Source: Leptonema illini DSM 21528
GTDB taxonomy: Bacteria > Spirochaetota > Leptospiria > Leptospirales > Leptonemataceae
Length of the DNA stretch: 64,000 nt
NCBI RefSeq assembly: GCF_000243335.1
Contig: NZ_JH597773.1
Span: 3,218,156-3,282,155 of the forward strand
Reading direction: 5' to 3'
In this document: positions 11,521 to 64,000 of the stretch, in pieces
Numbering within the stretch: the stretch's first letter is position 1
Layout of the letters: each line of letters begins with the position of its first letter
The notes under the pieces: model-generated
What the model was told of the DNA's origin: nothing
The model's input: the letters and a program-made list of their open reading frames with translations, nothing else
The model's database searches: none
Translations under genes and position numbers: made by a program

Positions 11521-11536
11521 CGTCGGAGTTCCGACG
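11521..11536. repeat. GGAACTCC palindrome, copy 1 (extragenic)
   Basis: CGTCGGAGTTCCGACG, with arms of 7 bp around a central GT. It lies directly behind the stop codon of the AraC gene, where it could also form a small hairpin. It is the only copy in the first 44 kb of the window. Confidence 0.75.
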
Positions 11537-43971: not shown

Positions 43972-44736
43972 ATGGAAGGCATGCTTGAGAAGGTGGAAGT
44001 CCCGGCAGGTTTCGGGTCAGCGGTGGAGGCGGTTGTTCCGGAGTTGCTTCCGGGGGAGTGCACGAATATAGAAGGGGCGACAGAGGCATGGAAGAATCTC
44101 CAGTCGGAGTTCCGACCTGCCTTCAAAATCGTCGAGGTCGGAACTCCGACCGGGCTTTCAAGGAGCAGACAGGCCCTCGTACCCCCGGATTTTGAATGGC
44201 CCATCTGCAGGGAATGTGGCAGCGAGCTGGTCCTGAAGCATCAGATCCACCGACAGGATGCCCCCGGGTTGCCGGCTCCCGCCGGGAAAGACCTTTTTCT
44301 GGCCTTCCTGTGCCCGGAGGACTGTGGCGAGGAAGAGCCCGAGCATTTTTTGACCTTTCTGGACTCCAGGTCGGAACTCCGACCGGCCACTGAGGGCCCC
44401 CACGCCGAACCGATCGGCCTCCAGTTCGAGCCGTTCCGGGATCATCCGGGCATATCAGAACTCCAGCCGATTGCCGGCACAGACTGGATTGCCGTCGGCC
44501 TTGCCGATTGTGAGCTTCTTGAGAACGGCAAGCCTGTGCCGTTCCTGGACGGAATCGACCAGCACCACTTGAATAGCGAAAAGACAGGCGGCTATGTAAG
44601 CTGGGTCCAATGGGCCTGGCGGTGCTGTTCCTCCGCCCTCATGCCTGTCACGCAAATCGAATGGGCTGAAGGCTACTGGTATGTCATGGCCTGCCCGGAC
44701 TGCGGCAAATTGCACACCGAATATCAGGGGACCTGA
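43972..44736 (+). CDS. hypothetical protein with cysteine pairs, DUF1963-like
   Basis: 254 residues. Two likely zinc sites are WPICRECGSEL (about 75-85) and the closing MACPDCGKLH; CCSS lies in the region GGYVSWVQWAWRCC, which recalls the GGxPxWIQ motif of DUF1963/YwqG proteins. No signal peptide. The gene carries three palindrome copies, read as QSEFRPA, EVGTPTG and RSELRPA, which add stretches that look unrelated to the fold. It is followed one base later by the start of the next gene. The function is unknown. The start could be the second Met (43981). Confidence 0.6.
   Translation: MEGMLEKVEVPAGFGSAVEAVVPELLPGECTNIEGATEAWKNLQSEFRPAFKIVEVGTPTGLSRSRQALVPPDFEWPICRECGSELVLKHQIHRQDAPGLPAPAGKDLFLAFLCPEDCGEEEPEHFLTFLDSRSELRPATEGPHAEPIGLQFEPFRDHPGISELQPIAGTDWIAVGLADCELLENGKPVPFLDGIDQHHLNSEKTGGYVSWVQWAWRCCSSALMPVTQIEWAEGYWYVMACPDCGKLHTEYQGT
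44103..44118. repeat. GGAACTCC palindrome, copy 2
   Basis: GTCGGAGTTCCGACCT inside the DUF1963-like gene, read as S-E-F-R-P. It lies only 20 bases from copy 3 and in the opposite orientation of its central two bases. Confidence 0.85.
44136..44151. repeat. GGAACTCC palindrome, copy 3
   Basis: Exact GGTCGGAACTCCGACC, read as V-G-T-P-T. With copy 2 it flanks the codons for AFKIVE. Confidence 0.9.
44369..44384. repeat. GGAACTCC palindrome, copy 4
   Basis: Exact 16-base unit, read as R-S-E-L-R-P in the same gene as copies 2 and 3 but in a different frame from copy 3. Confidence 0.9.
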
Positions 44737-48407: not shown

Positions 48408-49609
<1,202 letters not shown>

Positions 49610-49613
<4 letters not shown>

Positions 49614-50374
49614 AGGCGTTCCTCCCGTTCGATGCAGCCATCCCGGAAGTGCACGATGCGGCTGGAATACTGCGCCATATCGGGCTCATGCGTCACCATC
49701 ACGATGGTGATCCCCTGATCTCGATTGAAGGATTGAAGAAGCTCCATCGTTTCGATGCTGCGGGCCGTATCGAGGTTGCCTGTCGGCTCGTCGGCCAGGA
49801 GCACAATCGGACGGGTGACGATGGCCCGGGCGATGGCAACGCGCTGTTGCTGTCCTCCGCTGAGCTCGCCGGGTGTGTGATGGGCCCGATCGGCCAGTCC
49901 GACGGCTCGCAGGGCGTCAAGAGCAAGCTCATGCCGCTCCGAGGTCGGAACTCCGCGGTAAATCAGAGGCAGCTCGACATTCTCAAGAGCGGTCGTTCTT
50001 GAGAGCAGATTGAACCCCTGAAAAACGAATCCGAGGTAATTCCGCCGCAGAAGGGCTCGCTGTTTGCTTGTAAGCGTTCCCGCATCGACGCCGTTGAACA
50101 GATACCGCCCCGACGTCGGCGAATCGAGGCAGCCGAGGATGTTCATACACGTCGACTTGCCCGATCCGCTCGGGCCCATCAGCGAGATGAACTCCCCCTC
50201 TTGCACGCTGAGATCGATTCCCGCAAGGGCGTGCACGGCCGCATCGCCCTGACCGTAGATGCGGCGCAGTTGCTCAAGGCGGATGACTTCGTTACGCGGG
50301 AAAGAGTCCTCATGCCGGATGGTATCGCTCCGTGAGGCGGATTGACGGCCCGATGTCTTTCGAGATCGCGCCAT
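49610..50374 (-). CDS. MacB/LolD-type ABC transporter ATP-binding protein
   Basis: 254 residues. After a 30-residue N-terminal extension the ABC domain shows Walker [10 protein letters not shown], the Q-loop region [20 protein letters not shown], signature [14 protein letters not shown] and Walker [13 protein letters not shown]. It energises the adjacent FtsX-type permease. The start follows the adaptor stop directly and the stop overlaps the permease start by four bases. A degenerate palindrome lies in [11 protein letters not shown], a loop between Q-loop and signature. Confidence 0.95.
49943..49958. repeat. GGAACTCC palindrome, copy 7 (degenerate right arm)
   Basis: GGTCGGAACTCCGCGG in the ATPase gene, read on the minus strand as R-G-V-P-T-S. 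Confidence 0.65.
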
Positions 50375-55326: not shown

Positions 55327-56504
55327 TTATCGTTAGGAGTAATCGTTACCTCTTGAGCCGTACACCAGTTACCGACCGATGGACAATCACCCGGTGTAAA
55401 GGTTAGAAGAGTCGTGCCAATTGTTGCTCGATCTACACCGTCTGTTGTGGGCATGCTGTCGACGGAAACGGGAACGGTTACGATACTGGCTGGGCCTTTC
55501 AGAAGTTGTACCGAGAATCGATTCGCGGCACCAACGCCAGCGCCTTCGTTTACGGTACGCGTCAACGGAAGAACTTGCACAGCCGGCGTATCATTATCCA
55601 GGTTATATGCAGCGACGTCATTCGCAGCTGCGTTGGCCTGATTCGTAAATGGTTGTCTTCCGCTGTAATTGCCATCTGCGCTGCTGCCATTGTTGAAATG
55701 CAAATCATAGTCGATGTCACCATCAATCAGTGGGTCATCGGCACCGGTAAGTAAGACGGGCTGAGGCATCGACCAATTACCGCTGGTGAAAGTTAGTGAC
55801 GGAACTGATACGCTACCCTCAGTTGTATCGGCGCTGCTCACGCCGATCGTTACATCATCCGTCGGGGCTGTTGTGAGGACTACGCTTGCACAGCCCCTTT
55901 TGCCGTCTTCGCTGGTTTCGATCTTTTTATCGGGCCGGGCGTTAATGTTTGAAGTTACAACGATAGATGGGGAATCATTATTGAGGATGACAATGCCCTT
56001 CACTTCACCAACGGTGAAGAGGTTGTAGTCTTGATCTTTGCTCTGTGCAGGTTGAAACTTGATTGAGACGAGAGTGTTAATCCCAACGTCAGTATTTGCA
56101 GTCAGTGAAATAGTCTGTGGCTGGTCCCAGTCCGAAGCAGTGAAGACGACCTGACTCTTATCGATCATGCCCATGCCTTCAGGTGCGACAGAAATTGGAA
56201 TCTTAACATCGTCCGTAGGCTGGCGCGTAAGTTTAATCTTGAAGACCAAGGTCCCGGCACCATTTTCTGGCACCGTATAATTGCATTCGCTATCGTCAGC
56301 ATCATCGTTGCCATCGCCATCAGGCCAGACGACGGCCCCGAGTGGGCCACGATTTACTTCAAAGAATTCCGTGATACCGAAGAGCATCTTATCGGTCAGG
56401 TCCCCGATGGGTCCACAAGAGGAGAGAAAAATAGTGCTGATTAGGGCGATCGGAGTTCCGACCTGCGTCATTTTGCTGAGGAAAAGGCCACGGATCTGTT
56501 TCAT
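55327..56504 (-). pseudogene. Calx-beta/DUF1554 lipoprotein gene, N-terminal part (split by IS)
   Basis: Start at 56504 (MKQIRGLFLSKM): the signal peptide ends in lipobox LSSC, so the original protein was lipid-anchored. About 390 codons with Calx-beta-like repeats (FTASDWDQPQTISLTANTD; FTSGNWSMPQPVLLTGADD) run up to the IS. Joining this part to the C-terminal part, with one copy of the TTA duplication, restores ITPNDNDVADGDINFKVV in frame and gives 1,140 residues. In its present state the frame reads 22 foreign codons into the IS and stops at 55263, so a truncated lipoprotein of 413 residues without DUF1554 may still be made. The signal peptide contains a palindrome copy. Confidence 0.88.
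56449..56464. repeat. GGAACTCC palindrome, copy 8
   Basis: ATCGGAGTTCCGACCT within the lipoprotein signal peptide, read on the minus strand as Q-V-G-T-P-I. It shares 21 of 22 positions, including outside flank, with copy 9. Confidence 0.8.
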
Positions 56505-56678
56505 AGGTACTCTCTGGGAGCAAAAAAAAGAATTCGTGCGCGCTCCCGGATTCTGGGACGGGCAGTTGATGGAAAATCCGCTGAGAAAGGAAAATTTTGA
56601 AGGGAATCCGGACTGTAAGAAAATACAGGGGTGAACGTTACCCGGAAGATCCGGCTTATCGGTCGGCATTCAGCAGAG

Positions 56679-56694
56679 ATCGGAGTTCCGACCT
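56679..56694. repeat. GGAACTCC palindrome, copy 9 (extragenic)
   Basis: Same core and right flank as copy 8, placed in the 220-base gap between the lipoprotein start and the GH18-like gene end. Apart from it I see nothing in that gap. Confidence 0.8.
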
Positions 56695-56724
56695 GCCTCA
56701 GAGCTTTCGATCGCGGAGGGTCGT

Positions 56725-57687
56725 TTAATTGCGGGAATACAGCCTCCAGTGAGCCGTCCCGCGCAAATGGTATCGTTTTGCCAGGAGTTTCATCTCACGC
56801 ACGAGGTGTTCATCCGGAAAGAAGGCGATCTCAGCTTTTCTGTTCTCGACTGCGCCACCCGGACAGCGGGCCACGAGCATCTGGGAGCGGTGCCGGTGAA
56901 CAGTGCCGGAGCGGCATTTCAGGAATTCCTGGAATGATTTCTTATGGAGAGTTCTATAGCGGCCGGTTTGGATTTCCCAGGCATAACCATAGGTCGGAAC
57001 TCCGAGCCAAATTTTGTCTGCCCGGACATGCTTCATCGCCAGCTGAATCGCCGACTCGGCCAGATGGACATCGGTAACGGGGCCGGGTTCCGTAGACGGG
57101 CGGTGATAGTCATACGTCATCAAGACGAATTCATCCGCCAGCGGTCCGATTCGAGAAAGGTCGTGGAACTCTCTCTGAGACGAGGGAAAGTTCCCGGGAA
57201 GCACAGCAAGGGAAAGAGTCTTTTTTCTGGCTGTCATCTCAGGATAGAGCTCCAGCAATAACATCTCAAGATATTCAAGATCCTCACCGCCAAGGTGTTC
57301 AAAATCCAGATGAAGCCCGTCGTAGCTCTCAGCAAGGAACAGCAGCGAGCGAACGGCTGTTTCTCGGTGCCGGGCGGATCTGAGCACACTCTCGCCCGTT
57401 TCCCGGTCCGGAAAGGCTACGAGCGGATAAACACGGGGGCGTTTTCCGGGCCGGCCTATAATGGTCGGAACTCCGACAGACTGGAGAGTACCATCTCGCC
57501 TCATCACAGTGCCAATCATGGCAAGGACGGCAGATTCTTTGATGCCATCCCTGATCGATTGCGAGGACGAAGGCAGATCCTCAAACCCGACATAGTTCCA
57601 GATGTCGGCCTTAAGAGCGACTGGCGTTGCCAGGCTGGAGCTCAACATGATGATCACAAAGCGCATTTGCGCCGACCGAAAGAGCAT
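56725..57687 (-). CDS. GH18-family (chitinase/YaaH-like) exported protein
   Basis: 320 residues from the ATG at 57687; the frame is open for 73 more codons upstream, but that part is antisense to the neighbouring gene, and a signal peptide (MRFVIIMLSSSLATPVALKA) begins seven codons in. The GH18 catalytic motif is YDGLHLDFEHL, with the Asp and Glu of DxxDxE kept, followed by FVLMTYDYH and LGVPTYGYAW, which match spore-germination YaaH-like enzymes that cleave N-acetylglucosamine polymers. The probable target is peptidoglycan or chitin outside the cytoplasm. Two palindrome copies lie in it, one exactly at the LGVPTYGY motif, where VP-YG is naturally conserved. Confidence 0.82.
   Translation of the reverse strand: MLFRSAQMRFVIIMLSSSLATPVALKADIWNYVGFEDLPSSSQSIRDGIKESAVLAMIGTVMRRDGTLQSVGVPTIIGRPGKRPRVYPLVAFPDRETGESVLRSARHRETAVRSLLFLAESYDGLHLDFEHLGGEDLEYLEMLLLELYPEMTARKKTLSLAVLPGNFPSSQREFHDLSRIGPLADEFVLMTYDYHRPSTEPGPVTDVHLAESAIQLAMKHVRADKIWLGVPTYGYAWEIQTGRYRTLHKKSFQEFLKCRSGTVHRHRSQMLVARCPGGAVENRKAEIAFFPDEHLVREMKLLAKRYHLRGTAHWRLYSRN
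56992..57007. repeat. GGAACTCC palindrome, copy 10
   Basis: GGTCGGAACTCCGAGC, one mismatch in the right arm. Minus-strand reading L-G-V-P-T-Y. GH18 proteins often have G-x-P-x-Y-G here, so similarity may partly be coding constraint. Confidence 0.55.
57463..57478. repeat. GGAACTCC palindrome, copy 11
   Basis: GGTCGGAACTCCGACA, read on the minus strand as V-G-V-P-T-I in a loop of the GH18-like protein. Confidence 0.8.
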
Positions 57688-57772
57688 GAGTGATTTCAGG
57701 CATTTTTCTGTCAGGAACAACCTTTTTCGATTTTTTTTGAGTACAATAGGCCGCTCTCCGACCTGAAGCGAT

Positions 57773-58279
57773 ATGCACATATCCCTATTACCCCAGCCAC
57801 CCATCAGCCGGAGTAAGCAGCGCGATGTATTTCGCCTGCAGGCTGCCGGCAAAGTGGACTTCTTCCTTCCTTCTTTTGCAAACGACCAGTTCAACCTTCT
57901 TCGCAATGATCCCGGCAGTTTGAATCTCTTTTTCAGGCTCCTACTCGGTCGCTATCGTAATCGAATCCTCCGACAGTTTTATAGAAACTTGAGCAGCAGT
58001 GACGACAGAATCCGGACACGCTATCAGTTCTCGGGTCTTGCTCTGCGAAGAGTGAGCTTCCCCGTGGAAGAAGAGGTCTGGGTTGAACTGCGATTGCTCT
58101 CGCTTGCCGTCCGGTGTTCAATGAGCCTGATCCTTGTGCAGCTTGTTCAATATGAATACTGTCGTCGATGGAAGTTCGGCCTTCGTAAGTGGGACCCTCA
58201 CATAGCGGGTCAGGTCGGAACTGCGACCTTTCACAGTCTGACAATTTCCTATTCAGAGGGTTGCAGAGGCTTGGACTGA
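57773..58279 (+). CDS. DUF1564-like protein (second copy)
   Basis: 168 residues. The core QFNLLRNDPGSLNLFFRLLL, then ALRRVSFPVEEEVWVELRLLSLAV and RCSMSLILVQLVQYEYC, aligns by pattern with the protein at 32563-33045 (strand, W-containing helix, S-hydrophobic helix). The N-terminal basic part and compact size recall DNA-binding repressors, with no known function. A palindrome copy near the end reads Q-V-G-T-A-T. It is divergent from the GH18-like gene across 85 bases. The 115 bases downstream hold nothing I recognise. Confidence 0.55.
   Translation: MHISLLPQPPISRSKQRDVFRLQAAGKVDFFLPSFANDQFNLLRNDPGSLNLFFRLLLGRYRNRILRQFYRNLSSSDDRIRTRYQFSGLALRRVSFPVEEEVWVELRLLSLAVRCSMSLILVQLVQYEYCRRWKFGLRKWDPHIAGQVGTATFHSLTISYSEGCRGLD
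58213..58228. repeat. GGAACTCC palindrome, copy 12
   Basis: GGTCGGAACTGCGACC; arms paired except one base next to the centre. It lies 17 codons before the end of the DUF1564-like gene. Confidence 0.75.
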
Positions 58280-58394
58280 GAGTATTTTTCTCTGGCAGTC
58301 AGCCCGACGTATTTCCACCATGGTACTCTCGTCCCGGGGGTTCACAGGCACGGGCTCTGTCCTGACGGGATGATATGCTATCGTCGAGGAAGAG

Positions 58395-61300
58395 ATGCCA
58401 GGCATTCGTATTTATTTATCCCATCCGCTTCAGGAGCTGGCAGATCGTTGGATCGCAGATACGAGCGACGATCTGAAAGGGGCCGACTTATTTCATCCGC
58501 TGCGGGTCATCGTCCCGAATCGGAATATGAAGCGCTGGTTGCAGATGTATATGGCCCGAAAGGGAATCGTGGCCGCCCATATCCGATTCCAGTATGTGGA
58601 AGATGGAATTCGGTCCTTGCTGGAAGGGATCGCCGGCGAGTATAACCCACAGGTATTGCGTCCGCTTGATCTTCAGGGAAGAATCCTGCATCTATTGCTG
58701 CAAGATCTGAAGTCTGATTCTCCGCTGTGGCCTCTATTAACACAGAGAGAGTCTCACTCCGCCAGGGAAGGTTCCGGCGAGGAATCGCTGCGGATCTTTC
58801 AGCTTTCTCAGCGAATGACGGATCTATTCACGAACTATGAATACCATCGGGTGGGCACTCTTGAAGATTGGAGGGAAATTGACTCCGATCTTACGCTTGA
58901 TGTGTTTGCAGATAGCAAATTCGATGATTCGCTTGCAGCCGACGGCCTTTTTGAGGAGCAAAGAAAGCTCTATAGAGCGGCTACCGTTGAGTATGGGAAG
59001 GACGAGCAAAAGCTCAATCTTTCTGTACTGCATGCTGATCGTGTACCCGTGTCAGAGTATGCGCGAAGGGTCCTCAAGGGAGATGTTAAGAAAGGAGAGG
59101 CTCCGACGGTCTATCTCTTCGGTCTATCACTTCTTTCGAGGTACCATATTTCTCTGATCCGGCATCTTTCCGATCATTATTCCTTTCGAGCTTATCTTCC
59201 GGATCTGGTTCCAGGGTTATTCAAGAGGTCCGCAAACGAAAATGACGAACAGTGGTCGCCGATAGAATTCACGGCGGAGTTCCGACCTGAAAACGACCTG
59301 TTCGCCGGCTGGAAGAAGTCTTTTGCTGAGCTACTCGGATTGCTTGAAACGGCTTTTCGTGGCCGCATTGAATGGTATGGTCGGAACTCCGACCGTACTT
59401 ATCCTCTGGGCCGCTTTCACGATGCTCTTCTCAAAGGAAGTATACATCCCATCACTGACCGGATCCATATTGGCTGCTGCCCCGGAGAACGACGGGAGGT
59501 TGAGACAGTCTACCAGTGTATTCTACAGGCGATGAGGGATGACCCAACCCTTGAGCTGACAGACATTGCGGTGCTTGTTCCCGACATGGAGCATTATCGT
59601 CCCTATATTCTTGATGTCTTTGAGCGCGATAGAACTGCGACAGATCGTCCGCTTATACCTTACAACCTTTCTGACTACTCGGCTGCCAGAGAAAGTCACT
59701 TTGCAAGCGGTGTACGTGCACTATTCCAGCTGATCAGAGGCGATTTCACCCGAAGTGAGGTATTCGAGCTTCTCTATAATCCGTGCTGCCAGCATGCAAT
59801 AGGAATTGATCGAGAAACAGTGGCCGAATGGCTGCGCCTCTTCGATGATGCTGGTATACGTCGTTTCTTCGATGCCGCTGATCGGAGTGCTCAGGTCGGA
59901 ACTCCGACTGATGGAGAACGATCCGATGCCTTTACATTTCTCAGAGGACTCAGAAGCCTCTATCTCGGAATGTTCCTCGAGCCGGATGATCTCCTGAGTG
60001 ATGGACTCCGCCCTCACTCCCTGTTCCTTGTCGATAGAACTGCCTTACTCAAACTCATCGATTTTGTGCAAAGGCTGTATCAGTGGCAGCAGGAATTGAA
60101 GCGGGAGTTTACAGGCAGAGAGCGTTTTGATAAAACAATGGAGTTCATTGATGGCTTTCTCTCGATTCCGGCATCGAATAATGAAGAACAGGAGGTCCGT
60201 GACCACATGGAGTCGGAACTCCGACTTTATGATCTGAGGCTTTTCAAGGATTTCACACTTCTGGAGCAGGCCATGCTCGCCTCTCTTACAGGCATCGCAG
60301 GTGGTCGTGGTCATTACCTTGCCGGAGGGGTCACCGTCTGCTCCCTTCAACCGATGCGACCGGTTCCATTCAGGCATATATACATCGCCGGCCTGGGTGA
60401 AGGTCAGTTTCCTCCCCGTGAGGATCGTTCTACCCTGAATCTGCTATCACGGGATCCCTCAGTCAGTGCCGGCGGGCTTCCACACAGCAATATAGCGACA
60501 GGAGAAAAGGCCCGGCTGCTTCTCTACGAAACCCTGCTCTCGGCGACCGATCGCATTGTTCTCCTTTATAACGGCCGAGATACGACCCGCGACAGGGAGC
60601 TTTTGCCGTGCTCTCCGCTGAATGAACTGATCTCTTATTTGAAGAAAGCGGATTCCCCCAAAACGGAGGATCTGGTTGAGCGCCTCCCGCTCAAACTTTA
60701 CAGCCGTCAGTACACAGGTCGGAACTCCTACCTGTTCTGCAATCTCTCCCGACCGGATATCCGGCTGCTCAATCTATCCTCCATCAGAACCCCACCTCCC
60801 CCCAGCCCTTCCCTTGCGGCCGGAACGAAGGTCGATCAGCCTCTCGCCACGGATATCCAGATCGCCCATCTGATCTCGTTTCTGCGTCATCCCGTAGAAG
60901 CCGTTATCAAGCGCCAGATGCGTCTCTATGATAGCCGTATCGAAGATGACAGTCTTCATGACGATGAGCCTTTCCATATCACAGATGAAGAGATATGGGG
61001 GATGTCATCGCTTGTGATTGAAAGGGCTCTCATGCTCATGTCGGAGGGGACGTCGAACAGTGCCGGCACCGCGATAAACGATGCGGTTTCCTCCATTCAA
61101 GGGGAGTTTGCCGATCGTCTGCCTGTTCCCCCCTATGATGAAATTGCTCTTAAAAAGTACCGATCGCCTGACTTTATCGAGCTGCTTGAGATGGCGGGCC
61201 CGATCCTCCACAGCCATCCGTTCAGGCGAATCCGACTCGCTGACGAAAGCGCTGTGCAGGTGAACGTGAAGGGACGATCAATCCGTCTGACCGGCGAGAT

Positions 61301-61931
61301 ACCCTTTCTCTCGTATGCGGACGGGCATGCGACGATACTTCATGTGACCGACAGAAATTTCACGAACAGAGTTCTATTTCCTTTGCTGTTTCAACTTCTC
61401 GTACTCGAACGCACTCGGAGCTTCCGCTGGCATTCGTTCACGATCTGCATCATAGCCATAAAGAATGGGAAAACACAGTTATTGCAATACGCGAATAACC
61501 CTGAGCGCACACTCCGGAGCACATATATAGAGGATCTTCTCGATGAGTATCTCGCGGGAGATCTAAATTATCTTCCTCTGCGACTTGACCTCCTGAGCAA
61601 AGACATGTGGAAGTCCGATTTCTTTGACACTGCAGTTGGCGATGCAATCCGACGACGACTCGAAGATGAAGCACTTGAGTCCGAGGTAGATTTCATGGAT
61701 CTTTTACGCGTCATTCCGCCAAAAATCGATGACGACATCCTCTCGCGAATGCGTAAACGCTGGGAGCCGATTGTGACGCTTTCCATTCCTGTCGATGATG
61801 GATCATCACGAAAAGGCAAATCAACTGATAAGACAGCGGAAAAGCAATCCAGAACGCAATCAAAAAAGCAAGCAGAGAAGCGACCAGCGAAATCATCAAA
61901 GAAACAGTCGAAGAAAGGATCTAAGTCATGA
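58395..61931 (+). CDS. recC: exodeoxyribonuclease V subunit gamma
   Basis: 1,178 residues, slightly longer than E. coli RecC (about 1,120). It starts MPGIRIYLSHPLQELADRW and has LFHPLRVIVPNRNMKRWLQMYMA, the RecC-type inactive helicase domains (VTVCSLQPMRPVPFRHIYIAGLGEGQFPPRED; RDRELLPCSPLNELISYL) and the C-terminal nuclease-like fold. It recognises Chi and splits the duplex in RecBCD for break repair and degradation of foreign DNA. The stop overlaps the recB start by four bases. Odd features are five palindrome copies within the gene and a Lys/Ser-rich tail (about the last 45 residues), which may add nonspecific DNA affinity. Confidence 0.93.
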   Translation: MPGIRIYLSHPLQELADRWIADTSDDLKGADLFHPLRVIVPNRNMKRWLQMYMARKGIVAAHIRFQYVEDGIRSLLEGIAGEYNPQVLRPLDLQGRILHLLLQDLKSDSPLWPLLTQRESHSAREGSGEESLRIFQLSQRMTDLFTNYEYHRVGTLEDWREIDSDLTLDVFADSKFDDSLAADGLFEEQRKLYRAATVEYGKDEQKLNLSVLHADRVPVSEYARRVLKGDVKKGEAPTVYLFGLSLLSRYHISLIRHLSDHYSFRAYLPDLVPGLFKRSANENDEQWSPIEFTAEFRPENDLFAGWKKSFAELLGLLETAFRGRIEWYGRNSDRTYPLGRFHDALLKGSIHPITDRIHIGCCPGERREVETVYQCILQAMRDDPTLELTDIAVLVPDMEHYRPYILDVFERDRTATDRPLIPYNLSDYSAARESHFASGVRALFQLIRGDFTRSEVFELLYNPCCQHAIGIDRETVAEWLRLFDDAGIRRFFDAADRSAQVGTPTDGERSDAFTFLRGLRSLYLGMFLEPDDLLSDGLRPHSLFLVDRTALLKLIDFVQRLYQWQQELKREFTGRERFDKTMEFIDGFLSIPASNNEEQEVRDHMESELRLYDLRLFKDFTLLEQAMLASLTGIAGGRGHYLAGGVTVCSLQPMRPVPFRHIYIAGLGEGQFPPREDRSTLNLLSRDPSVSAGGLPHSNIATGEKARLLLYETLLSATDRIVLLYNGRDTTRDRELLPCSPLNELISYLKKADSPKTEDLVERLPLKLYSRQYTGRNSYLFCNLSRPDIRLLNLSSIRTPPPPSPSLAAGTKVDQPLATDIQIAHLISFLRHPVEAVIKRQMRLYDSRIEDDSLHDDEPFHITDEEIWGMSSLVIERALMLMSEGTSNSAGTAINDAVSSIQGEFADRLPVPPYDEIALKKYRSPDFIELLEMAGPILHSHPFRRIRLADESAVQVNVKGRSIRLTGEIPFLSYADGHATILHVTDRNFTNRVLFPLLFQLLVLERTRSFRWHSFTICIIAIKNGKTQLLQYANNPERTLRSTYIEDLLDEYLAGDLNYLPLRLDLLSKDMWKSDFFDTAVGDAIRRRLEDEALESEVDFMDLLRVIPPKIDDDILSRMRKRWEPIVTLSIPVDDGSSRKGKSTDKTAEKQSRTQSKKQAEKRPAKSSKKQSKKGSKS
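59272..59288. repeat. GGAACTCC palindrome, copy 13
   Basis: CGGCGGAGTTCCGACCT, left arm one base off. In recC it is read A-E-F-R-P-E. Confidence 0.7.
59379..59394. repeat. GGAACTCC palindrome, copy 14
   Basis: Exact unit in recC, read G-R-N-S-D-R, the third possible frame. Confidence 0.9.
59894..59909. repeat. GGAACTCC palindrome, copy 15
   Basis: GGTCGGAACTCCGACT in recC, read Q-V-G-T-P-T. Confidence 0.85.
60211..60226. repeat. GGAACTCC palindrome, copy 16
   Basis: AGTCGGAACTCCGACT in recC, read E-S-E-L-R-L. Both outermost bases differ from the common form but still pair (A with T), a compensated change. Confidence 0.85.
60718..60733. repeat. GGAACTCC palindrome, copy 17
   Basis: GGTCGGAACTCCTACC in recC, read G-R-N-S-Y-L; one mismatch in the right arm. 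Confidence 0.75.
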
Positions 61932-64000
61932 GTATGCAAGATCTGAATCATCCCTATGATTTCGATCTGTCGAAGCATGGCTGGATCGAGGCCTCGGCGG
62001 GAACGGGGAAGACCTTTACGATTGAGAGACTGGTTGTGCGCGCCATCGTGGAAGAGAAGATCCCTATATCTTCCATCCTCACCGTTACATTTACCGAGAA
62101 GGCGACCGGAGAGCTGAAAGATCGCATCCGCGGTCTATTACAGAACATCGTCGACGGAAGCCTTGCAGAAGGCGACAGACAGTGGTTCGAGGAGCAGCAA
62201 CGCAAACATGGGGAGCAGGAAGCGAGCAAAACCTTCGCTTTCGTCAAAGAGTCCCTCGATAGATTCGATGAGGCGGCCATATTTACGATTCACGGTTTCT
62301 GTCAGTCACTGTTAACCGAGTATTCGTTCGAGCTCGGACGTCTTCTCAAGTACGAGCTTGTGAACGACAACGACCTGCTTGAGACGCTCATCCCCGACGC
62401 TCTGCGCAGGCTTCCGGTTTCGGAGTCCCATCTACTGGAGCGGCTTGTCCGATCCGAGTTCTGGAAGGTTACCCATTCCGGGGAGCCCCGCCTGGAAAAC
62501 ACGGTGCGCAATCTGCTTCGCATGCTGAAAGGAAACGTCGAGCCGCGCCTCTCTTCTGCATCCGAGGATTCGCCGATGCAGATCGTTCTTCGCATGGTGC
62601 GCTCGATTCAGGACAATCTTACCCGTCTCAAGGCGGAGCGCGGCTGGATCAGCTACGACGATATGATCCTGCATGTGCGCGATGCGCTCTGTCCGACTAC
62701 AGATCGATTTAAAGATCAAGCGACAGACCGAGCTACAGATCAAAAGAAGGACCCCGATACGAGTCGCAAACTGGCCTCTGCCATAGGCGAACGCTTCCGC
62801 TTTGCCATCATCGACGAATTTCAGGATACGGACGCTCTGCAATGGGATATCTTCAGCGCCTGCTTTCTGGACTCCGGCCGTCACGTTAGCCGAACGTCTG
62901 ATCGCAAATCCGACGATCGGTCGCCCCGGTTGATTCTTGTCGGCGATCCGAAGCAATCCATCTACGGCTTTCGCGGAGCGGATCTCAACGCCTACTTTAG
63001 AGCAAAGAAGCGCTTTGTTGCGCTTACCGAAAAGGGAGAAGCCCATCTTTATCGAATCAATCGCAATTTTCGATCATCGCCGGAGTATATACAGGCCCTG
63101 AATGCCATCTTCCAGTCGGAGGGTTATCCGTGGAACGTGGCCTCTGGCGACAATGATCTGGCTTACGTTTTGAAAGATTGTCCGACAGGCAATCGATGGG
63201 AAGGCACAGAGCTACCGCAGGGGCGCCGTCCGATGAACCTCTGGAGGCCCGAAAACGCTGACGGTGCCGCTGCCATTCGATTGGCTCATGCCCGTCATAT
63301 CTGTAACGAAATCCGTTTCCTCACGGCAGGCGGACATGAACTCTGCAAAGATGGGAAGCGTCTGCCCGTGAGCTACGGCGACATCTGCATACTGGCCCGT
63401 TCAAAAAAAGAGGCCACAGGAATTCTCGGACATCTTCGCGCAGCGGGCATACCGGCCTCTTTCTATAAACAGGCCGGCGTATTTGAATCCGTCGAAGCGC
63501 TTGAGATTCTCTACGTGCTTGAGGGGCTTGCCGAACCGGCTCGCTCATCGGCAGTGCAGAAGGCGCTCCTCACCCGATTTTTTGGCATCTCTATAGAGCT
63601 GATCCAGGCGATGGATGAATTACCGGTCGACCATCCCTTTCGCGAGCGCCTGCAGCGCTGGCATGAGCTTGCCGGCGAGAATCGATGGCCGCAGCTTTTT
63701 CGCGAGATGATGACGGTCGACGAGTTATTCGCACTCGTACATGCCGATGCCGGAGGCTGGGAACGCAGCCTCACGAACTATGAGCAGATCTTTCATGCTC
63801 TCGAAGAACGGGCCCTTCGTAACGGCCTTGATCTGATCGGAATCGTGAGACAGCTGAAAGAATTGATACGCGAAGGATCTCTCGAAGAAGAAGAGACGCT
63901 GCACAAACAGGAAACCGAAGAGCAACGTGTGCGTGTCATGACCATCCATGCAAGCAAGGGCCTTGAGTTTCCGATCGTCTTTATCTATGGCGGCCTCACA
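61928..64000 (+). CDS. recB: exodeoxyribonuclease V subunit beta, 3' end outside window
   Basis: 691 codons are visible with no stop, so the gene runs off the window. UvrD-type SF1 helicase: Walker A in IEASAGTGKTFTIERL (about 20-35), TVTFTEKATGELKDRI, IFTIHGFCQSLL, Walker B IIDEFQDTDALQW, GDPKQSIYGFRGAD, RINRNFRSS and, at the window edge, VMTIHASKGLEFPIVFIYG. These are all standard RecB motifs in order; the C-terminal nuclease domain is not seen. A linker near residues 255-280 is rich in Thr/Asp/Lys. It is coupled to recC by ATGA; recD, if present, would follow beyond the window. Confidence 0.96.
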   Translation, partial: MSMQDLNHPYDFDLSKHGWIEASAGTGKTFTIERLVVRAIVEEKIPISSILTVTFTEKATGELKDRIRGLLQNIVDGSLAEGDRQWFEEQQRKHGEQEASKTFAFVKESLDRFDEAAIFTIHGFCQSLLTEYSFELGRLLKYELVNDNDLLETLIPDALRRLPVSESHLLERLVRSEFWKVTHSGEPRLENTVRNLLRMLKGNVEPRLSSASEDSPMQIVLRMVRSIQDNLTRLKAERGWISYDDMILHVRDALCPTTDRFKDQATDRATDQKKDPDTSRKLASAIGERFRFAIIDEFQDTDALQWDIFSACFLDSGRHVSRTSDRKSDDRSPRLILVGDPKQSIYGFRGADLNAYFRAKKRFVALTEKGEAHLYRINRNFRSSPEYIQALNAIFQSEGYPWNVASGDNDLAYVLKDCPTGNRWEGTELPQGRRPMNLWRPENADGAAAIRLAHARHICNEIRFLTAGGHELCKDGKRLPVSYGDICILARSKKEATGILGHLRAAGIPASFYKQAGVFESVEALEILYVLEGLAEPARSSAVQKALLTRFFGISIELIQAMDELPVDHPFRERLQRWHELAGENRWPQLFREMMTVDELFALVHADAGGWERSLTNYEQIFHALEERALRNGLDLIGIVRQLKELIREGSLEEEETLHKQETEEQRVRVMTIHASKGLEFPIVFIYGGLT

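Follow-up and report, generated by a model that had tools for sequence, protein, structure and literature searches.

A near-palindromic word recurring in and around recC of Leptonema illini, a candidate recognition site of DUF1564-type proteins

The chromosome of Leptonema illini carries dozens of copies of a near-palindromic 14-letter word, GTCGGAACTCCGAC. Within genes these copies lie on either strand and in all reading frames, and the word therefore acts at the level of DNA and not as peptide or RNA. From comparison of sequences we put at about one in two the probability that DUF1564-type proteins, which form a multi-copy family in the Leptospirales, recognise the word, and that most of its copies arose in place, through base changes and not by insertion. 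The Leptonema form of this putative binding site would be 5'-CAGGTCGGAACTCCGAC. In relatives, the word appears upstream of and inside DUF1564 genes in a placement suggestive of operators. In Leptonema and in JANSYA01, which belongs to the same family, it has also accumulated in neighbouring coding sequence where the proteins tolerate it, most thickly around the DUF1564 genes themselves.

The word and its hotspot around recC

We analysed a window of 64,000 bp (positions 3218156–3282155 of the large scaffold of a draft genome comprising scaffolds of 4,325,094, 184,087 and 13,579 bp). Copies and genes in the window are listed in Table 1. The first-pass annotation had reported five copies of a palindrome within recC, and these are real: three are exact copies of GTCGGAACTCCGAC and two carry one mismatch. 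The peptides it named and the use of three frames are correct, and its positions do fall in recC, with the first coordinate off by one base. The identity of the gene is borne out by its Exonuc_V_gamma and RecC_C domains and by recB downstream. The excess is likewise far beyond chance, with 26 matches in the window at up to two mismatches against 0.84 in shuffles (a palindrome being counted on both strands). The cluster is not recC's own, however. Ten copies with at most one mismatch lie in 4.3 kb (56449–60731), a stretch that takes in a GH18-like gene and a DUF1564-like gene as well as recC. The DUF1564-like gene itself holds a copy (58214) and marks the midpoint of this hotspot. The density of the word in recC is most likely due to the adjoining DUF1564-family gene, since recC lies 116 bp downstream of it. 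Two further copies are found in recD and three in the cell-wall gene mpl. In Leptospira biflexa, recBCD is located on a plasmid (p74, NC_010844, 16974–25602); the word was not found in 50 kb of p74 or in 50 kb of the plasmid pLIMLP1.

Table 1. Copies of the word and associated genes in the window (window coordinates)
Feature	Position	Strand	Remarks
Exact copy	11522..11535	-	
Exact copy	44103..44116	-	
Exact copy	44137..44150	+	34 bp from inverted copy
Exact copy	44370..44383	+	
Exact copy in MacB/FtsX permease gene	48922..48935	+	
11-bp 5' part of the word (GTCGGAACTCC)	48963..48973	+	3' arm diverged
Copy, 2 mismatches	49944..49957	+	mismatches at 3' end
Copy, 1 mismatch	56449..56462	-	
Copy, 1 mismatch, intergenic	56679..56692	-	
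GH18-like gene	56725..57906	-	two copies
Copy, 1 mismatch	56993..57006	+	codes conserved GH18 segment LGVPTYGY
Exact copy in GH18-like gene	57464..57477	+	~300 bp upstream of DUF1564-like gene
Possible half-site (CAGGTCGGA plus mismatches)	57749..57765	-	just upstream of DUF1564-like ATG; 5 of 17 mismatches, weak
DUF1564-like gene	57773..58279	+	cluster centre; candidate gene for a protein reading the word
Copy, 1 mismatch, within DUF1564-like gene	58214..58227	+	codes VGTAT
recC, host gene of five copies	58395..61931	+	intact 1178-aa ORF; PF04257 99.7 bits, PF17946 31.1 bits
recC copy, 1 mismatch (GTCGGAACTCCGCC)	59273..59286	-	codes AEFRP
recC copy, exact	59380..59393	+	codes GRNSD
recC copy, exact	59895..59908	+	codes VGTPT
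recC copy, exact	60212..60225	+	codes ESELR
recC copy, 1 mismatch (GTCGGAACTCCTAC)	60718..60731	+	codes GRNSY
recB start	61928..64000	+	continues beyond the window; no copies seen as far as the window reaches

Described earlier as a palindrome, the word is in fact a near-palindrome: its centre (AC/GT, with the central AC fixed) breaks the symmetry, and conservation is higher in the 5' half than in the 3' half. The CAGGTCGGAACTCC part hardly varies and the final GAC is looser, giving the word a polarity; among the 26 single-mismatch copies genome-wide, the mismatch falls within the last three bases in 16 and within the first three in 4. The 39 exact copies in the genome share CAG on the 5' side (C in 24, A in 34 and G in 28 of 39); on the 3' side there is no more than a weak SGG, and beyond these triplets their flanks have no likeness. 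Partial copies showed no clear excess, and 3'-truncated copies as the trace of a copying mechanism were rejected on this ground. The literature searched for the sequence of two 14-mers contained no occurrence of either.

DUF1564 genes and dialects of the word in relatives

To our knowledge no function has been described for the DUF1564 family, and the literature searched yielded no mention of DUF1564 together with Leptospira. The window gene matches PF07600 weakly (23.3 bits, just below the curated cut-off of 25), as does a paralogue 50% identical to it (C1:893914-894390; 24.0 bits), whereas relatives match well (67.3 bits for the JANSYA01 homologue); with a profile that includes the window gene itself, that gene scores 113 bits. 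The paralogue has an exact copy inside and lies within the sole cluster of exact copies that stands apart from the others. Together these two genes have within 10 kb 16 of the 64 genomic sites of the 11-mer GTCGGAACTCC, against 0.58 expected; random placement of two genes among the clustered sites gives P=0.0003, the two genes having been found through the motif. Many Leptonema copies lie far from both. The genome has 19 DUF1564 hits in total, and six of the eight located in the 0.94 Mb examined have no copy inside or within 5 kb.

The concentration of the word at DUF1564 genes is seen in three genera, with operator-like placement in JANSYA01 (G011) and in G022, whose genome belongs to a second family. 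In JANSYA01 the word takes the form GTNGGAACTCCNAC, with 31 copies, of which TGTAGGAACTCCTACA accounts for most. Compared with the Leptonema form CAGGTCGGAACTCCGACCG, both arms have changed together (C:G to A:T) around the same core, GGAACTCC, and the polarity is as in Leptonema, with 5' GTA nearly fixed and TAC, GAC, AAC or CAC at the 3' end. Nine of these 31 sites lie within 10 kb of the only two DUF1564 genes of this genome (0.21 expected), one of which contains one copy and has a second, part of an extended palindrome, at its promoter end. At the 5' end of the DUF1564 gene C10:70789-71442 this palindrome extends to 30 bp (ACCGAAGTGTAGGAACTCCTACACTTCGGT). Elsewhere in JANSYA01 (C3:119081-119136; L084), coding copies 42 bp apart read CRNSY-CRNSY-CRNSY with unrelated spacers. 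In another genus of the family (G018), the 20 kb around the only DUF1564 gene have five 11-mers (GTAGGAACTCC), within 6 kb of it. Copies in a further genome, G012, may be on contaminant contigs, as inferred from their gene content, and some matches to the word are what we take to be natural VGTPT codons in genes resembling UDP-glucose dehydrogenase.

In the second-family genome the three copies of GTAGGAACTCCTAC all lie at a single DUF1564 gene: the gene contains one, a second precedes it by 74 bp and the third lies about 1.8 kb past it, none being more than 2.4 kb away. The 22 other DUF1564 loci of this genome, which are paralogues and so not independent, have 25 forward cores (GGAACTCC), all no more than 800 bp upstream, and 21 reverse cores (GGAGTTCC) inside the genes in nearly fixed codons, where 0.78 cores would be expected in 73 kb. 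Arrays of aatGTGGGAACTCCA spaced about 65–67 bp apart occur upstream at these loci (C1/C2; L305, L327, L352-L371). The loci look like a family of autoregulated units. A C-terminal [GA]VPT is conserved among DUF1564 proteins, so that the copy inside the gene is possibly driven by the protein, an explanation that cannot hold for the upstream arrays. Sites upstream of a DUF1564 gene are thus present in JANSYA01 and the second-family genome, and in Leptonema there is only the copy some 300 bp before the gene, besides weak half-sites. In two other genomes (G026 and G027), DUF1564 genes run to dozens and the word is present in few copies.

These associations suggest that DUF1564 proteins may bind DNA and, specifically, this word, with a possible effect in autoregulation or in marking or organising the nearby chromosome. 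A two-sequence AlphaFold model of DUF1564 has strand-helix-helix (beta-alpha-alpha) twice, the same order as in ribbon-helix-helix proteins, at an unreliable pLDDT of 41; a fold search of the PDB with this model gave no match. The arrangement resembles parS-ParB and other autoregulated pairs in that sites lie near the gene of the putative binder, and in relatives in both its promoter and its body. It differs in that the word is unlike canonical parS, which occurs once in the sampled DNA, in a segment bearing a chromosomal parB, and in that the candidate binder family is not ParB. If the recognition-site reading is right, it opens a first way into the study of DUF1564, of which some Leptospirales genomes have dozens of copies, by supplying a candidate ligand, a DNA word of 14–17 bp, and the odd density in recC would be explained by a neighbour and not by recombination biology. 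With considerable reserve, one might go further and see the DUF1564 proteins as sequence-specific DNA binders that form a multi-copy family peculiar to spirochetes, each member reading its own dialect of one near-palindrome centred on GGAACTCC. In some genera the words would have been written in place over hundreds of kilobases around DUF1564 genes, through coding sequence that includes core repair and cell-wall genes, as a new DNA-marking system that reshapes the sequences of proteins.

Confinement of the word to part of the chromosome

The genome as a whole has 39 exact copies (20 and 19 on the two strands; none of the reversed-word control), 65 copies with at most one mismatch (control, 2) and 64 copies of the 11-mer (control, 3). 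In this draft assembly, and on one scaffold, the word is confined to a chromosomal region as sites of the macrodomain type are: 27 exact copies lie at 3.10–3.43 Mb, nine at 3.82–4.26 Mb and three at 0.894–0.907 Mb, leaving 2.19 Mb (0.907–3.098 Mb) empty. When copies within 5 kb are merged, none of 23 clusters falls in 51% of the scaffold, and a gap of 2.2 Mb exceeds any in 20,000 simulations. Within the dense 350 kb the sites bunch further, with nine 11-mer sites in 4.3 kb, where 5000 uniform placements gave 7 at most, and 17 neighbours less than 500 bp apart against 1.9 expected. An intergenic array at C1:3215567-3215684 (L135:17567-17684), between divergent genes, has four copies spaced 33–36 bp apart with similar spacers.

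Such confinement could mean that the word marks a region of the chromosome for a dedicated organiser, as the sites of SlmA, Noc or MatP do, with DUF1564 genes incidental. The empty half of the scaffold agrees with this, as does the position of 36 of the 39 copies between −0.49 and +0.67 Mb of dnaA-dnaN (3.59 Mb). Moreover, SlmA sites (12 bp, 50 in number, none in Ter and mainly in coding regions; PMC3116907) resemble the word in size, number and coding location, and show that words in coding regions can be chromosome marks (PMC3116907). SlmA, Noc and matS sites as a group share with it a length of 12–16 bp, (near-)palindromic form, tens of copies, regional confinement and a mostly intragenic location. 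Yet the Leptonema sites bunch on a scale of kilobases, mainly on one arm, and around one gene family, with density peaking at DUF1564 genes in three genera, and their candidate binder is suggested by genomic association. The asymmetric centre and looser 3' arm would also be odd for a dimer site, and exact copies are absent for about 160 kb to the left and 230 kb to the right of the origin. We therefore consider a dedicated organiser unlikely.

The geometry of origin and terminus is itself unsure, as the genome is a draft and the second flip in GC skew coincides with the scaffold ends: the only other flip is at dnaA-dnaN (3.59 Mb), so that either the replichores are very unequal or the scaffold contains a mis-join. 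Sequence resembling transposase stands at both ends of the scaffold. A second DnaA-like gene (G000:C1:2449352; Bac_DnaA_C, 69.6 bits) does not adjoin dnaN.

Formation of the word in coding sequence

The recC copies had been viewed as short insertions absorbed by the gene without loss of frame. As a general origin of the word, insertion was rejected since it fails on conserved domains. Five of the six domains in which this could be tested encode, through the word, residues that align with homologues without a gap, which argues for formation in place. In a VAT1-like quinone oxidoreductase (QOR), VGTPTSELR aligns to VGEGVSDRK; in the GH18 domain, the LGVPTYGY segment aligns to IGVPLYGY; and the residues coded by the word in TruB also align without a gap, as does the G-x-P-T region that it codes in the Lhr helicase of JANSYA01. 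Deletion of the four to five coded residues lowers the Pfam score by 12.2 (QOR), 10.6 (TruB), 9.8 (YgjP), 13.9 (DUF6597) and 20.5 bits (GH18). DUF423 has the sole copy of the six that looks inserted, removal of its coded residues raising the score by 2.4 bits. MacB was uninformative for deletion scoring because its copy lies at the domain edge.

RecC and Mpl give a more mixed picture. Compared with homologues of 44–52% identity, Mpl has one copy in a turn of normal length and two in loops whose length varies. In RecC, three of the five copies lie in gap-rich stretches, where deletion raises the score (AEFRP, +1.8 bits; VGTPT, +1.0; GRNSY, +1.2), and insertion is possible at these three. The other two behave like average positions (GRNSD, −1.6 bits; SELRL, −3.9; random median, −5.5). 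The RecC relatives aligned are only about 21–37% identical, so that alignment cannot decide on insertion at AEFRP, VGTPT and GRNSY; a congener of Leptonema was sought for recC in GTDB contigs and none was found, which precluded an alignment of RecC from close species. From these comparisons the word would usually arise by substitution where the protein tolerates change, and a minority of copies could be insertions. If so, it is a DNA mark written through conserved coding sequence without insertion.

A tiny self-inserting element that hops locally, in the manner of the small dispersed repeats of cyanobacteria, would account for the local clustering, including tandem pairs, for those RecC and Mpl copies that lie in variable loops, and for the DUF423 domain that scores better once its copy is removed. 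It is rendered rather improbable by the gap-free placement at conserved residues (QOR, TruB, YgjP, DUF6597, GH18 and Lhr), which cannot come from insertion, and by flanks that share nothing but CAG and weak SGG. Like small dispersed repeats, RPEs and REPs, the word is short, dispersed and partly palindromic, and like RPEs and small dispersed repeats it lies in frame in genes. It differs in that, relative to homologues, it is mostly not inserted in the testable cases, and, unlike REPs, it is not extragenic, most of the 39 exact copies sitting in long ORFs.

Formation in place, the absence of a preference for gene strand and the change of dialect between genera would also fit a word of the DNA-uptake type spread by molecular drive, since DNA uptake sequences (DUS and USS) are formed by substitution in coding DNA, occur on both strands and, for DUS, have dialects between genera (PMC3630211). 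Uptake sequences number hundreds to thousands genome-wide, and thousands in the case of DUS, against 39 exact copies and 64 11-mers here; with half the chromosome empty, steep local clustering and the tie to one gene family, an uptake word is very improbable. Finally, a Chi-like site for the Leptonema RecBCD, a connection raised in the first-pass annotation, has in its favour the seven copies in recC and recD but can hardly be sustained, because orientation relative to replication from dnaA-dnaN is unbiased (23:16), over-representation is not genome-wide, half the chromosome being without copies, density is equal in adjoining non-rec genes and mpl has three copies.

A LexA box was rejected too, the Leptospira LexA boxes (TTTGN5CAAA and TTGTAN10TACAA; PMC3789691) differing from the word. 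Matches in the actinobacterium Microcella (L154, L159, L172, L176, L191, L196, L219 and L220) were set aside as a different, longer REP-like palindrome, ACTACTCCGGTGTAGGAACTCCTACACCGGAGTAGT, which has the same core; this likeness is probably convergent.
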